DNA of 33,536 nucleotides, from IMG/VR virus record IMGVR_UViG_3300046616_000611, positions 1 through 33,536 of that record. One strand, written 5' to 3'. Positions 3,936-32,758 of this stretch are shown piece after piece. This DNA comes from a virus. The notes below the pieces were generated by a model, which saw nothing but the letters and a program-made list of their open reading frames with translations, ran no database searches and was not told the DNA's origin. Position numbers and translations under genes: made by a program. How positions within the stretch are numbered: position 1 is the stretch's first letter; each line of letters opens with the position of its first letter.

Positions 3936-4492
3936 GCCGACTGTGCAGACGTCTGCACTCCACGATCAAGATACATGACACGTTCAGCGCACCGTCTCGT
4001 CGTAAGCCCAGGCAAGACCACGCCTCCAGCCTTATTCCACAGCAAAAACCTGTCGCCTGCCGTCGCATACTCCCGCCGCGATGTACTGCGGCATATCGAA
4101 CTGAGCCGGAATGCTTTGACGCCGATGTTATAAGCCAAAGACGTACAGGCCGCTTGACGCGTCGACGGTTCACGCAGCAATTGCGGGCATGCGTCCAATA
4201 CGCCTACCAGCACGGCTGCAGCACGACTTGCCAGTCCGGCTTCGGCCTGGTCGACTGTCCACCACATATCCTCGTGTACGCCTTCAGTTTCCCCGTAGCC
4301 GATAGTCCAGGGCGCACCGTCGAGATCCCGGAGCGCCGCCGGGATCTCCGCCCCGCCCTGCATGTAAGGGGCTAAGATGCGTGTCTTTCGCATCACTACA
4401 GCCAGCGGCGATGCAGGATCTGGATAAGCCCGCAGCGACAGGCCCTCACAGAGCCTGATCAATCCGCAGGCAAGCTGCAGCGCTGTACTCAC
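3932..4492 (-). CDS. Phage endolysin, lysozyme of the GH24 (T4-like) family
   Basis: Cleaves peptidoglycan glycan strands at the end of the lytic cycle. The T4-lysozyme catalytic triad is visible: E16 in LCEGLSLRAYPD, D25 nine residues on (same spacing as T4 E11/D20), and T63 in WTIGYG. About 37 residues are inserted between D25 and T63 compared with T4. The C-terminal half (AYNIGVKAF...LLWNKAGGVVLPGLTTRR) is typical of phage GH24 enzymes. There is no N-terminal signal-anchor, so export should depend on the holin. The start is a GTG overlapping the holin stop (GTGA). The last residues, VQTSAQSA, are encoded by the 16-bp palindrome at 3943-3958, which looks like an add-on to the C-terminus. 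Confidence 0.9.
   Translation of the reverse strand: MSTALQLACGLIRLCEGLSLRAYPDPASPLAVVMRKTRILAPYMQGGAEIPAALRDLDGAPWTIGYGETEGVHEDMWWTVDQAEAGLASRAAAVLVGVLDACPQLLREPSTRQAACTSLAYNIGVKAFRLSSICRSTSRREYATAGDRFLLWNKAGGVVLPGLTTRRCAERVMYLDRGVQTSAQSA
3943..3958. repeat. 16-bp palindrome GTGCAGACGTCTGCAC, copy 1
   Basis: Perfect palindrome, last codons of the endolysin gene (reads VQTSA) and 8 bases from the end of the convergent lipoprotein gene. One of six dispersed copies in the window. Confidence 0.95.
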
Positions 4493-17621: not shown

Positions 17622-18039
17622 CACCAGCCCCAGCCGCTGCCCCCAGTTGGACGCCGTTTTCCGGCTCCGCGCCAGCCTGATCTTGTGCAGACGCCGCCGG
17701 GGCCGCGCCTTCAGACTGCTGCGTGCCTGTACCAACGGCAGCGCTCGCGTCTGCCTGGTGATCCGCAGGAACCGTTTGGGCACGGTTGCGCGGCGCCGCC
17801 GGTTTCTTCGGATTGCCGACAATCAGCTTTTGTGCAGACGTCTGCACAAATACCTCCGCGCCGCCGTTCGATTGCAATTCGTCGTCAGCAAGTGCAGACG
17901 TCTGCACAACCGAAGCCGGACGCGCAATGCCAAGGCGCACCAGTTCTTCCGCGCGCAGCTTGTCGACGCCGCGTAAGACCGTGCCGCGACGCACCCATAC
18001 CTTGCCGTCACGATGAGGTTTAATGATCTCGATATTCAT
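17602..18039 (-). CDS. Hypothetical head-region protein with low-complexity C-terminus
   Basis: 145 aa from ATG 18039, with GGAG just upstream; the open frame runs on to 18222 but overlaps the capsid gene. Residues 1-40 (MNIEIIKPHRDGKVWVRRG) form a small charged domain; the rest is Ala/Gln/Pro-rich and probably disordered. Two copies of the 16-bp palindrome, exactly 60 bp apart, encode VQTSA twice within the linker. The slot between capsid and connector often holds small decoration or unknown proteins. No function is assigned. Confidence 0.65.
   Translation of the reverse strand: MNIEIIKPHRDGKVWVRRGTVLRGVDKLRAEELVRLGIARPASVVQTSALADDELQSNGGAEVFVQTSAQKLIVGNPKKPAAPRNRAQTVPADHQADASAAVGTGTQQSEGAAPAASAQDQAGAEPENGVQLGAAAGAGDEPGQS
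17832..17847. repeat. 16-bp palindrome GTGCAGACGTCTGCAC, copy 2
   Basis: Perfect copy inside the linker protein gene (reads VQTSA on the minus strand). Its start is exactly 60 bp from copy 3. Confidence 0.95.
17892..17907. repeat. 16-bp palindrome GTGCAGACGTCTGCAC, copy 3
   Basis: Perfect copy in the same gene and frame as copy 2, 60 bp away, so both lie on similar faces of the helix. Confidence 0.95.
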
Positions 18040-24151: not shown

Positions 24152-24167
24152 GTGCAGACGTCTGCAC
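24152..24167. repeat. 16-bp palindrome GTGCAGACGTCTGCAC, copy 4
   Basis: Perfect copy and the only non-coding one, 18 bases before the HNH start codon and just outside its ribosome site, well placed to act as an operator for the late genes. Confidence 0.95.
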
Positions 24168-25048: not shown

Positions 25049-25750
25049 TTACAGACCCAGGGCCTGCTCTGCCATCTTCAGCGCAGCGAACGTCACCGGT
25101 TCGCCACGCTCATGCTTCGCCAGCACTTCCCGAGCCCAATCGGTCTGCTGACCTACAACGCTTAGAGGCACCCGCTTGATGCGCAGCTGCGCCAGCAACT
25201 CCCTCGCACGTTCTGGCGGCATCTGCGTTTTACCCGGCGCCGGCAGCGCGACCGCCTTAACTGGCACAGGCGGCAAGTCCAGATCTTCCGCATACTCGCT
25301 CAGAGCGGCCACCCAGCGCGGCCTCAACACCTCGTAACCCTGATGCATCATGGCGAACGAACCGATCTTCACCCAAGCCCAGTAGATCGCCGGATGCGAC
25401 CACACATCAGGCTCACCCGCTTTGCCCAAGTCGCGCCTGGAACCCTGCTCCAGCGCCTCATGGAATGCGGTCACAGGATCGAGGTTCGGCCTGCACAACT
25501 TGATGAATTCGGGCAGAGTTGGCGGCCAGTCGCGGGAGTCCAACATGCGATAGCCGGTTGCCAGCTCAGCTCTGGACAGCGCCCCTAGCCGCTCGGCCCA
25601 ATACTGCTTCATCTCGACCAGATTCACGCCATTCCACAGGTCCGCGAATCTGGAGCCATAGGCCCAGGACATCCGCTTGAACAACGACTCAACCCAGCTG
25701 ATGGGAAGCGGCGCGTGGGGTGATATCGATGATGTTGTCGTCTCGATCAT
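25049..25750 (-). CDS. Replication protein P-like (helicase loader)
   Basis: A 233-aa protein resembling lambda P-type proteins that recruit the host DnaB helicase to the phage origin. Matching parts are WVESLFKRMSWAYGSRFADLW, YWAERLGALSRAELATGYRML and RDWPPTLPEFIKLCRP (the WPPxxxEFxxLC signature), then a Trp-rich helical region and a basic C-terminus. It overlaps the O-like gene by 62 nt; ATG 25750 has GAGAGG upstream. It does not itself show Walker motifs. Confidence 0.8.
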   Translation of the reverse strand: MIETTTSSISPHAPLPISWVESLFKRMSWAYGSRFADLWNGVNLVEMKQYWAERLGALSRAELATGYRMLDSRDWPPTLPEFIKLCRPNLDPVTAFHEALEQGSRRDLGKAGEPDVWSHPAIYWAWVKIGSFAMMHQGYEVLRPRWVAALSEYAEDLDLPPVPVKAVALPAPGKTQMPPERARELLAQLRIKRVPLSVVGQQTDWAREVLAKHERGEPVTFAALKMAEQALGL

Positions 25751-26753
25751 TTGGACCCTCTCCTGTCAATCCTGCGATGGTTGCGGCTCGCGCCGCAGTG
25801 AAACCTGCCGTGTGCCCCGACTTCTGCGTACGTGCCCCCGCGACGTTCATCGCAGCAGCTTCCCGCGACCAACGTGCAAGGATGCTCACGACATAACCCA
25901 GGTTCAGCTGGTCCCCCTTGGTGCGCTTGCCTTCTTCGCAGGCAGCAGCAACAGTCGCTACCGTGACGCCCTGGCCTGCCATTTCGAGCAATCGCGGGTC
26001 CGCTGGCTGCGTACGCACACCATGCCGACGAAACTCGACGCTGAGGGCGACCGCCCCGCGCGCAGGGTCTTCGATTAGTGTTGGCTGTATTACGGGGTTT
26101 ACATGGTTCTTATTTTGGTTCTGGTTCTGGTTCTGGTTGGATTCAGCGTTTGCCAACCGCGATTGAACCCCGGTTGCATCACGGTTGCCCCCCGGTTCAA
26201 TCGCGGTTGCATCGCGGTTGCATCCCGGTTCAACCGTGGTTGCAAACGATTCGCCCCCGGCTACGTGACCGAAGTCCAGGCCGGACTGCGGCGGATTCTT
26301 CAGACTCACGAGGAGTTCCGACAGCGCAAGGCTTTCGGGGATATCGCCATACTGCTGGACGAAGCCAACCAGTCGGCGCTCAGCACTCGTTATATCGCCC
26401 GTGGCGATGTCTTCGCGGATGCGGCGCTCTTCCGCCATCCACGCCTTTTTGCGCCCGCCGGCATTTGCATTGCGCTGGTTGTCCTTGTACGCCTGAATCT
26501 CCGCAGCGCAGGCCTCATTGAACCAACCTTCGTCTGTCAGCACGAAGAAGTCAGCGAGCACCTGATCCGCCGCCTCAATTTCCTCAGGCGTCACAATCAG
26601 CAGGAGTCGATACAGCCGACGCTTGTCCGCGAGCAGCGGTTGCTCTTTCTCGAAATAGAGGTCGCGCATATCGCGATAGATACCACGCTCCATGCGCGTG
26701 AGATGGCGCGTGGCGCTGTTGAAGTCGCCAATGTGGTGTGGGTAGTAATTCAT
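25689..26753 (-). CDS. Replication protein O-like with DUF1376 domain
   Basis: A 354-aa probable origin-binding protein. Residues 1-95 are the DUF1376 (YdaU-like) domain: MNYYPHHIGDFNSATRHLTR, YRDMRDLYFEKEQPLLAD. A linker at 174-198 contains an 11-residue repeat (EPGCNRDATAI / EPGGNRDATGV), followed by an Asn-Gln run (206-216). The C-terminal part has VEFRRHGVRTQPADPRLLEMAGQ-type sequence common to these proteins. The repeat-coding DNA forms an iteron-like array (26154-26248), as in lambda O where the origin lies inside the gene. Starts five bases after the upstream stop. Confidence 0.82.
   Translation of the reverse strand: MNYYPHHIGDFNSATRHLTRMERGIYRDMRDLYFEKEQPLLADKRRLYRLLLIVTPEEIEAADQVLADFFVLTDEGWFNEACAAEIQAYKDNQRNANAGGRKKAWMAEERRIREDIATGDITSAERRLVGFVQQYGDIPESLALSELLVSLKNPPQSGLDFGHVAGGESFATTVEPGCNRDATAIEPGGNRDATGVQSRLANAESNQNQNQNQNKNHVNPVIQPTLIEDPARGAVALSVEFRRHGVRTQPADPRLLEMAGQGVTVATVAAACEEGKRTKGDQLNLGYVVSILARWSREAAAMNVAGARTQKSGHTAGFTAARAATIAGLTGEGPNDRDDNIIDITPRAASHQLG
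26154..26248. repeat. Iteron-like array inside the O-like gene (candidate replication origin)
   Basis: Seven GGTT units start at 26172, 26183, 26194, 26205, 26216, 26227 and 26238, spaced exactly 11 bp, with GGTTGCATC(G/C)C as the commonest form. CAACCGCGATTGAACC (26154-26169) is the exact reverse complement of 26194-26209. A run of GGTTCT hexamers and a less GC-rich stretch lie beside it at 26060-26140. Confidence 0.65.
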
Positions 26754-29979: not shown

Positions 29980-30388
29980 AGTGATCGTCTTACCACTTAC
30001 TTCAGTCAAATTTACAGTTGTTGCACCTGCGACTCTGATAGAGCAACTCATCAAAGGTGCCTTTGCTCCTTCGCTGAACCAACCAGAACGTAGTCAAGAG
30101 TACATCGACGGGACGCGCGCCGCATTACTCCAAAACCTAGTTGGTAAGCCGCTCGCGTGCAAATACAAACTTGGCACAGCAGCAGCCGATGCTTTTTTCG
30201 CTGGCGTTGATGAAGGCCGCGCTATTCATGCCAAGTACATCTCATCTCAAAGCGCCGCTGCACTGAACGTAGATCCATATGCAGGGCTCAAAGGTCACGA
30301 CTACATCAAGGCCCGCAATCTCGCACCGCCGGTTCAAAGGCGAGTGCAAACGTCTGCACACACTCAACTTAATGAGAGTCAGGCATGA
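29969..30388 (+). CDS. First gene of the rightward early operon, hypothetical
   Basis: 139 aa, unknown. Mixed alpha/beta look (LTSVKFTVVAPATLIEQLI; DGTRAALLQNLVGKPLACKYK; FFAGVDEGRAIHAKYIS). The C-terminal VQTSAHTQLNESQA is encoded by a one-mismatch copy of the palindrome, again as a C-terminal add-on. ATG 29969 is given; GTG 29981, with GGAG at 29971-29974, is an equally good start. As first gene under the PL-like promoter it occupies the place of lambda N, but it is not arginine-rich as N proteins are. Confidence 0.7.
   Translation: MEQLVIVLPLTSVKFTVVAPATLIEQLIKGAFAPSLNQPERSQEYIDGTRAALLQNLVGKPLACKYKLGTAAADAFFAGVDEGRAIHAKYISSQSAAALNVDPYAGLKGHDYIKARNLAPPVQRRVQTSAHTQLNESQA
30344..30359. repeat. 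Palindrome copy 5, one mismatch (GTGCAAACGTCTGCAC)
   Basis: Differs from the others by G to A at position 6. Lies in the last codons of the 29969-30388 gene. Confidence 0.85.
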
Positions 30389-30916: not shown

Positions 30917-32758
30917 ATGTCGAAACTCGTAACCCTTCCAGAGCCAATTGTGCCGATGCCAGAGGATCGCACGATCATCGTTGACGAACTGGTCATCGAA
31001 GGCTATCAGAACCAACCACTCTACGAAATCCGCATCTCGGACGACAACCGCAAATGGTTCAGCATGGAGACGCTCACGGAACTTGCAGGCAGCATGCAGT
31101 CCGTCGGCGTCCTGCAGCCGATCCTGGTGCGCCCGGTGGCAATGACCACCTTGCGCCCGCAGCGCTTTGAAGTCGTCGCCGGCGAACGTCGCTTCCGCGC
31201 TGCGATCATCGCCCAGCTGCCCGCCGTTCCGCTGATCGTGAAGTGGCTTAGCGACGAACAGGCCGCGGAGATTCGCCTGCTGGAGAACATCCAGCGCGAA
31301 GATCCACACCCACTGGAGGAGGCGGACGGCTTCCAGCAACTCATGCTGACCTTCGGCTACGACGTCAAGAAGCTGATGGACATTACGAAGAAGAGCGAAG
31401 CGTACGTCTACGCCAGCCTTAAACTGTGCGCGCTCACGCCCAAGGCACGCGAGCTGTTCATGCAGGACAAGGAAGCGCTGCCAGCCTCAACCGCCTTGTT
31501 GATAGCGCGCATCCCCGTCCCTGAACTGCAGAACCGCGCACTGGCCGAGATTTTGTCACCAGGCAGCAGTGACGGTCCGATGTCCTTCCGCGCAGCCAAG
31601 AGCTGGATTCAGGGCCGTTATATGCTGAACCTGAAGAAGGCAACGTTCCCGATCAAGGATGCCAAGCTGTTGGCCGGCGCCGGGAGCTGCAACGCCTGCC
31701 CGAAACGTGCAGGGAATCAGCCACAAGTATTCATTGGCGTGAGTGCAGACGTCTGCACTGACCCGGACTGCTTTGCGGAGAAGACCAGCGCTCACAAGGC
31801 CAACGATGAGAAGCGTCAAGCATCTACAGAAGCGCAGGCTCGCAAAGCCGGCATTCCGATTCATGAGGGCGCTATGGCCCTGGCACACTACAACAAGATT
31901 TATGTAGCATCCGGCGATGTTGTTTGCGACGGTACTGCACTCTACACTTTCGCCCGAGTGAGCCCGCACACCAAGATGGAAGGCAACGTTGCGACCTACC
32001 TTCGCGCCGACGACATGCCAACGCCTGTTAGCTACATCAAGGAAGAGAAAGGCCTGATGGCCTTGTATAGCCGCATCGAAGTACAGGCAGCACTGGAAGC
32101 CGCCGACGCATGCCTGGTCGCATCGGCAAGCGCTTCGTTAGAGACCGCAGACGTCGAGCAAACCACGGACGCGACGCCTGAAGCAGCAGACAACTGTGAA
32201 ACCGAGCATGCGGGCAACCCGCTCGTGCCACCACCCCCGAGCCGCGCAGACCGTGCCAAAGCAGAGACCGCCCGCCGCGTGGAGCACTACCGCATTATCC
32301 GCGCTCGTGCCTCGCAACACGGCACACCTCTTCAGCTCCTGCGCGAAATTGCCAAGCTGATGGTGCGCGACTCAGATAACAGCTACACGCTACCTGACGA
32401 CCTCATCCCCGACGTCTATTCCTTCAGTACCTTCAGCGACGATGGCGTTTGCCAGTTCATCGACCACGCGTCAATGACCGATGTGCATCTGATCCTGATG
32501 GACCTGACCATTTCCCAGCAACTCAGCGCAGGACTCTACGAAGACTTCGGCCACGAGGAGAACTTGGCTGAGAATGCGCTCCGCGCCATGGACGCCGCCA
32601 TGCCCGACGCACCGGCGGCACAGACACCACGCAAGACGATCACCCTGGAGAACAAGCCGGCCACCAAAGTCACAACTAACCACGCCGGCCCTCTTATCAC
32701 GACTAAGAAAACGCGAGTAGTGCCAGAAGCCGCATGGCCTTTCCCGACCCAACGCTAA
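30917..32758 (+). CDS. ParB-like (PRTRC-type) DNA-binding protein with zinc ribbon
   Basis: 613 aa. Residues 25-140 form a ParB/Spo0J N-terminal domain with intact nucleotide motifs: GERRFRAA (89-96) and ENIQRED (123-129), the CTP-binding boxes of ParB proteins. A KorB-type HTH follows (TFGYDVKKLMDITKKSEAYV, about 144-163). A zinc-ribbon-like set is C258, C261, C280, C285, in the order CxxC ... CTDPDCF, as in ParB proteins of PRTRC plasmid systems. Residues 300-600 are an unassigned helical region with a Pro/Ala linker near 435-450. No ParA ATPase is encoded in the window. The codons of S276-T281 form palindrome copy 6. It could act in early gene control, replication or segregation. Confidence 0.85.
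   Translation: MSKLVTLPEPIVPMPEDRTIIVDELVIEGYQNQPLYEIRISDDNRKWFSMETLTELAGSMQSVGVLQPILVRPVAMTTLRPQRFEVVAGERRFRAAIIAQLPAVPLIVKWLSDEQAAEIRLLENIQREDPHPLEEADGFQQLMLTFGYDVKKLMDITKKSEAYVYASLKLCALTPKARELFMQDKEALPASTALLIARIPVPELQNRALAEILSPGSSDGPMSFRAAKSWIQGRYMLNLKKATFPIKDAKLLAGAGSCNACPKRAGNQPQVFIGVSADVCTDPDCFAEKTSAHKANDEKRQASTEAQARKAGIPIHEGAMALAHYNKIYVASGDVVCDGTALYTFARVSPHTKMEGNVATYLRADDMPTPVSYIKEEKGLMALYSRIEVQAALEAADACLVASASASLETADVEQTTDATPEAADNCETEHAGNPLVPPPPSRADRAKAETARRVEHYRIIRARASQHGTPLQLLREIAKLMVRDSDNSYTLPDDLIPDVYSFSTFSDDGVCQFIDHASMTDVHLILMDLTISQQLSAGLYEDFGHEENLAENALRAMDAAMPDAPAAQTPRKTITLENKPATKVTTNHAGPLITTKKTRVVPEAAWPFPTQR
31743..31758. repeat. 16-bp palindrome GTGCAGACGTCTGCAC, copy 6
   Basis: Perfect copy inside the ParB-like gene, in a different reading frame from the other coding copies (reads ADVCT), covering the third zinc-ribbon Cys. 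Confidence 0.95.

Follow-up and report, generated by a model that had tools for sequence, protein, structure and literature searches.

A candidate bipartite replication origin within the linker-coding region of a phage DUF1376 initiator gene

The window, meaning the whole stretch of DNA that was analysed, is the 33.5-kb (33,536 nucleotides) IMG/VR virus record IMGVR_UViG_3300046616_000611, which contains a phage replication and immunity region. The genes and features referred to below are as follows.

25689..26753, minus strand: initiator-type gene of the DUF1376 family, 354 aa, with the arrays inside it, assigned through PF07120 and PHROG primosomal protein families
25049..25750, minus strand: next gene, a P-like helicase loader (phrog_109, E=6.3e-14)
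26403..26753, minus strand: N-terminal DUF1376 domain (residues 1-117), proposed to read the 11-bp units (AlphaFold2, Foldseek, unit covariation)
26073..26258, minus strand: stretch encoding the disordered linker (residues 166-227, pLDDT below 50 for the most part; AlphaFold2)
26154..26241, minus strand: 11-bp iteron array of 8 units, seven of them intact (AACCGSGATGC-like) and the eighth AATCGCGGTTG
26154..26169, no strand assigned: left arm of a perfect 16-bp inverted repeat, two inverted units, CAACCGCGATTGAACC
26194..26209, no strand assigned: right arm of the same repeat, GGTTCAATCGCGGTTG
26115..26138, minus strand: 6-bp AACCAG array of four units (a GGTTCT run on the plus strand)
26094..26114, minus strand: short A-rich stretch (tail) behind the hexamer array, containing two further AACC
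30917..32758, plus strand: ParB-like protein of 613 residues (ParB_N and HTH_ParB)

The preliminary description had called the gene that contains the arrays O-like. This holds by position and partners, as the P-like loader gene adjoins it, an arrangement of the ori-lambda type, and a CII-like gene, a Cro/CI-like regulator and an S24 repressor lie upstream (Pfam, PHROG). It does not hold by sequence. The sole Pfam match is PF07120 (DUF1376; E=1.8e-28, residues 2-86), with 99.2 bits against a curated cut-off of 30.1, which places the protein in the DUF1376/YdaU family, and its PHROG matches are 'primosomal protein' families with no O-like family among them; homology to lambda O was therefore rejected. 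AlphaFold2 predicts a helical N-domain with a short two-strand hairpin, winged-helix-like in form (pLDDT about 95 in the full model, mean 87 for residues 1-110 modelled alone), and a confidently predicted helical C-domain at residues 229-304, and both arrays fall within the coding region of the disordered linker. A PDB fold search with the protein gave no significant match. Foldseek matches of the N-domain were weak and mostly to winged-helix proteins, none with E<=0.001; the best was ORC2 (E=0.1), and the DnaD N-domain and an initiator were also listed.

Seven GGTT-headed units at exact 11-bp spacing had been reported previously, and they are indeed found on the plus strand, starting at 26172, 26183, 26194, 26205, 26216, 26227 and 26238. 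On the coding (minus) strand these units read AACC, falling in frames 2, 1, 0, 2, 1, 0 and 2, and an eighth unit, AATCGCGGTTG (26154-26164 in plus-strand numbering), is in phase with one change. Read along the coding strand, units 1-4 are AACCACGGTTG, AACCGGGATGC, AACCGCGATGC and AACCGCGATTG, units 5-8 are AACCGGGGGGC, AACCGTGATGC, AACCGGGGTTC and AATCGCGGTTG, and a 15-bp gap then leads to AACCAG AACCAG AACCAG AACCAA. Direct repeats inside the initiator's own coding sequence are a feature of ori-lambda-type origins. The array is the strongest 11-bp, 22-bp and 33-bp periodicity of the whole record, with a best 11-bp self-match of 41/55 at 26163, compared with 25 at the next best place and a maximum of 32 over 100 first-order random genomes. 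The flanking 16-bp inverted repeat of the preliminary description was likewise confirmed as perfect. As the 11-bp units are quasi-palindromic (AACCGCGRTT) and inverted repeats of a comparable kind are present in homologues, we regard it as a result of unit symmetry and not as a separate element.

The hexamer run noted earlier is also present, with GGTTCT at 26117, 26123 and 26129 followed by GGTTGG at 26135, and is the strongest 6-bp periodicity in the record. The lower GC content attributed to this neighbourhood was retained as a local property, since homologues are AT-enriched in the array and for about 10-20 bp after it, and was dropped as a description of any wider region; a wide AT-rich unwinding region as in classical origins is absent. 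No DnaA boxes were found in the window, and GC skew is uninformative there as an origin mark because it tracks the coding strand.

Selection on the DNA was assessed against a null of shuffles that permute synonymous codons while keeping the protein and its codon usage (20,000 shuffles for the window gene). In the window gene, AACC pairs at a distance (lag) of 11 numbered 6 compared with 0.94 expected (p=5e-5), and at the same lag there were 23 tetramer recurrences compared with 4.1 (p=3e-4). The window hexamer run on its own was not beyond chance under this null (14 recurrences compared with 11.4, p=0.30), and its significance comes only from family-level data. For these data, 56 dereplicated DUF1376 homologues were chosen without reference to any DNA pattern. 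AACC-AACC distances in these genes exceeded the null at lag 7 (76 compared with 17), at lag 11 (46 compared with 8.7) and at lag 6 (143 compared with 88), the last of which may be enriched in the sample because one of the six retrieval peptides was NQNQNQNQ, the null being conditional on the protein. When any core was allowed, z reached 10.7, 15.5, 19.8 and 17.3 at lags 6, 7, 11 and 22, and lags other than 6, 7, 11 and their multiples stayed at or below about 4. As this excess stands over a null that holds the protein fixed, the repeats are selected at the DNA level and are not a by-product of the protein.

The same comparison bears on the explanation that selection acts on the protein, with an 11-residue or NQ-rich linker peptide being what matters. 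The host protein does contain an 11-residue repeat and an NQNQNQNQ stretch, and NQ stretches recur in homologues, but protein-keeping synonymous shuffling removes most of the signal, and homologues with wholly different linker peptides (EPGCNRDATA, VREGCAQDAS, VEQPLNECA) keep the 11-bp period. We consider selection on the peptide highly improbable.

A comparison with homologues had been proposed to determine if the period is conserved while the sequence changes, and this is what was observed in DUF1376 homologues, in the DUF6291 family and in two lactococcal initiator genes described below. Among DUF1376 lineages, the lag-11 unit is AACCGCGATGC in the window and in homologues L003 and L004, ACAGTGCGCGA in L009, L013 and L050, TGCGCGCAGG in L010 and L011, TTGAACAGCCG or TTCAACAGGTG in L019, L022, L036 and L046, and AACCCANNNNN in L049, L054 and L079, with an individually significant 11-bp array in only 31/56 genes. 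AACCA is the core that recurs at lags 6 and 7, with AACC in 34 and 28 genes, respectively, and an AACCA-headed 6- or 7-bp array occurs in 50/56 genes. The orientation of this array on the coding strand is always AACC (GGTT in 0/56 DUF1376 genes), its composition is strand-asymmetric (A.54, C.33, G.11, T.02), and the fifth base of the 7-bp units, left free by the search pattern, is A in 98% of 489 units. Of the 38 DUF1376 genes with both arrays, 36 have the 6/7-bp array after the 11-bp array. On these sequence comparisons, the GGTTCT run of the window appears as a second, more conserved element in its own right. A G-quadruplex of the GGTT strand is not favoured, as the AA and the following A of AACCA are as conserved as the CC. 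Neither the C-domain nor the N-domain clearly predicts whether the array is of the 6- or the 7-bp type, and loader type was rejected as the reader of the AACCA array, as P-like and DnaC-like loaders both adjoin either array type. Three DUF1376 genes (L066, L068, L072) carry AACC at 354, 365 and 376 and then GGTT at 385 and 396 (also 407 in L068); both stretches are spaced at 11 bp, an arrangement that is inverted and not simply tandem.

Five AACC at 7 bp were also looked for in 2.9 million viral contigs (IMG/VR); among the matches listed, 106/123 lie in DUF1376 genes on the same strand, and the AACCNNN arrays in DUF1376 genes were never antisense. Five AACC at 11 bp were found mostly in same-strand open reading frames of 200-300 residues; 31 of 80 such proteins match DUF6291 and 6 match DUF1376, and DnaD-like loaders and O-like initiators are among their PHROG matches, part of which may stem from shared linker composition. 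When AAGC was scanned at 11 bp as a control tetramer, the arrays again lay mostly in same-strand open reading frames and in the same kind of gene (51/79 DUF6291), so the letters of the 11-bp core are not fixed; with DUF1376 units varying as well, AACC was rejected as a single essential 11-bp core. The view that period 11 is strictly unique was softened, as 10-bp AACC arrays occur in similar-looking open reading frames, beside many simple repeats. For DUF6291, 45 genes were retrieved with an N-terminal peptide only; lag 11 reached z=29 (AAGC as the core in 36 genes and AACC in 12), lag 6 reached z=11.6 (AATG as the core in 32 genes), and the 6-bp array lies downstream of the 11-bp array in 45/45.

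These data also bear on neutral tandem duplication or slippage in an unconstrained linker, by which the repeats would be mutational debris without a DNA function. Disordered linkers tolerate repeats, and array lengths do vary among homologues. However, slippage should favour units of 3n, and the excess is at lags 7 and 11 with lag 9 weak (z of 4.1 in one family and -3.6 in the other); in addition, units inside an array differ while their spacing is exact, the same periods and order recur in two initiator families, and the AACCNNN arrays are mainly in DUF1376 genes in the single orientation described above. Neutral slippage is thus very unlikely in our assessment.

Unit similarity between phages goes with the identity of the N-domain (Mantel rho 0.44, p=0.0005, 26 genes) and not with that of the C-domain (rho 0.05, p=0.26, 26 genes), a comparison in which the mosaic C-domains limit the range and physical linkage may contribute. 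This covariation suggests that the N-domain reads the 11-bp units.

Known origins were compared using the same method, and the positive controls were recovered with lags 20 and 23 in lambda O and lag 20 in P22 gene 18. Inside O, the iterons of ori-lambda come first and a strand-asymmetric, AT-rich stretch follows them (PMC6022878, PMC5043065). The window resembles ori-lambda and the lambdoid origins, P22 gene 18 among them, in having iterons with dyad-like units in the linker of the initiator gene, a strand-asymmetric element downstream along transcription and a CII gene upstream; the P-like loader gene is next in the window and in lambda, where P22 has a DnaB-like helicase gene instead. The differences lie in the units: lambda has four iterons of 18 bp at intervals of 20-24 bp and an AT-rich region of 39 bp, whereas the window has an array of eight units of 11 bp and AACCAG repeats of 6 bp, with high AT over about 10-20 bp only. 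Lambda-type 18-bp dyad iterons at 20-24 bp do not occur in the window, where the period is 11, and there is no Pfam or PHROG match between lambda O and the window DUF1376 protein. The best reading is of a probable origin on the ori-lambda plan but with units of its own.

The closest parallels in unit spacing are lactococcal P335 genes, Tuc2009 rep2009 and r1t orf11, which like the window gene have exact 11-bp AACC units inside an initiator gene and a short-period A/G-rich stretch after them. Tuc2009 rep contains AACC x4 at exactly 11 bp (p=0.002), and its database record states 'contains origin of replication'; Tuc2009 Rep is reported to bind direct repeats that lie within its own gene and act as ori (PMC8965321). 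The r1t orf11 gene, a Rep2009 homologue according to the same paper (PMC8965321), contains GGAACC x4 at 11 bp. Tuc2009 differs from the window in its initiator, annotated as DnaD-like, in having four units and in a 5-bp AGGAT-type second array. This purine-rich AGGAT/AGGTT array follows the 11-bp AACC units (L650:3939-4010; lag 5 z=6.5) and makes 5 a third short period, next to 6 and 7. The accepted in-gene origin of TP901-1 rep showed no 11-bp array by the same method. Rac ydaU shares with the window a DUF1376 initiator, in a cassette of ydaU and a putative ATP-binding ydaV; it is without an AACC array, and its linker has a lag-11 and lag-12 excess. The Rac origin oriJ is reported to be active (PMC3945230). 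In E. coli K-12 ydaU (L327:3620-4477), oriJ may be located in the linker, which contains repeats of the TGTTCAAACA type as well as GATAMA hexamers.

A regulatory or partition site, such as an operator, an RNA element or a centromere for the ParB-like protein, was weighed against an origin. The ParB-like gene at 30917-32758 and the transcript of the inverted repeat, which folds better than shuffles (z -3.0), speak for such a site. Against it, the arrays go with initiator genes in different phages, a dispersed 16-bp palindrome is another candidate ParB site, and the array region gave no match in an Rfam search and no promoter-like site. We hold a regulatory or partition role to be very improbable.

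The arrays are, with good probability, a bipartite replication origin embedded in the linker-coding region of the DUF1376 initiator gene, with origin activity, binding, melting and loading inferred. As proposed, about eight 11-bp iterons, one per helical turn, would lie along one face of the duplex, and copies of the initiator would probably bind them through the winged-helix-like N-terminal DUF1376 domain to form a nucleoprotein complex. The 6-bp AACCAG array and its A-rich tail, directly downstream along transcription, would be where the duplex probably opens; one opened strand could be captured here by the initiator or by an initiator-loader complex, and the P-like loader would then bring DnaB, which would be loaded there. 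As neither 11 nor 7 is a multiple of 3 and the protein requires no more than a flexible linker, the DNA keeps its spacing and a repetitive peptide is the price paid. Origins embedded in initiator genes are already known, and the one proposed in the window is most likely a variant of these and not a new kind. We did not find the family-wide bipartite rule or the invariant AACCA array described in open-access papers.

The second array can be set beside bacterial DnaA-trio/DUE elements, in which 3-nt repeats are read by DnaA. Both are short-period, strand-specific arrays beside double-strand initiator sites, with 6/7-bp AACCA units beside phage initiator sites in place of the 3-nt units, and the likeness is one of analogy only. 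More tentatively, and with our own judgement leaning slightly against it, the 6/7-bp AACCA array could be an origin element of its own kind, specific to one strand and a phage parallel to the DnaA-trio idea, that DUF1376 initiators keep whatever their C-terminal domain or loader, while the 11-bp units change with the N-domain. If so, the low-complexity linkers that are widespread in phage initiators (NQNQ, NQEPITK, NVND, KDKD) would be the protein shadow of DNA arrays. The bipartite origin reading would assign a likely role at the DNA level to what is annotated as a low-complexity linker of the protein, and it would supply a sequence-only rule for finding origins in many phages and prophages with poorly described initiators (DUF1376, DUF6291, DnaD-like). 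It also poses a recognition problem, in which the 11-bp units diverge with the N-domain beside a constant AACCA array, and the natural variants make both origin-initiator specificity and the opening element of O-like systems testable.

Finally, a perfect 16-bp palindrome, GTGCAGACGTCTGCAC, occurs five times in the record (3943-3958, 17832-17847, 17892-17907, 24152-24167 and 31743-31758) and once more at 30345-30358 with one mismatch in its 14-bp core; record-wide, the core has 6 matches with up to 2 mismatches compared with 0.23 expected. Its size and form recall parS, and a ParB-like protein is encoded in the record. The phage is apparently an integrating one, with an integrase-like open reading frame at 1-1266, and a ParB-like protein is unusual for a non-plasmid prophage.
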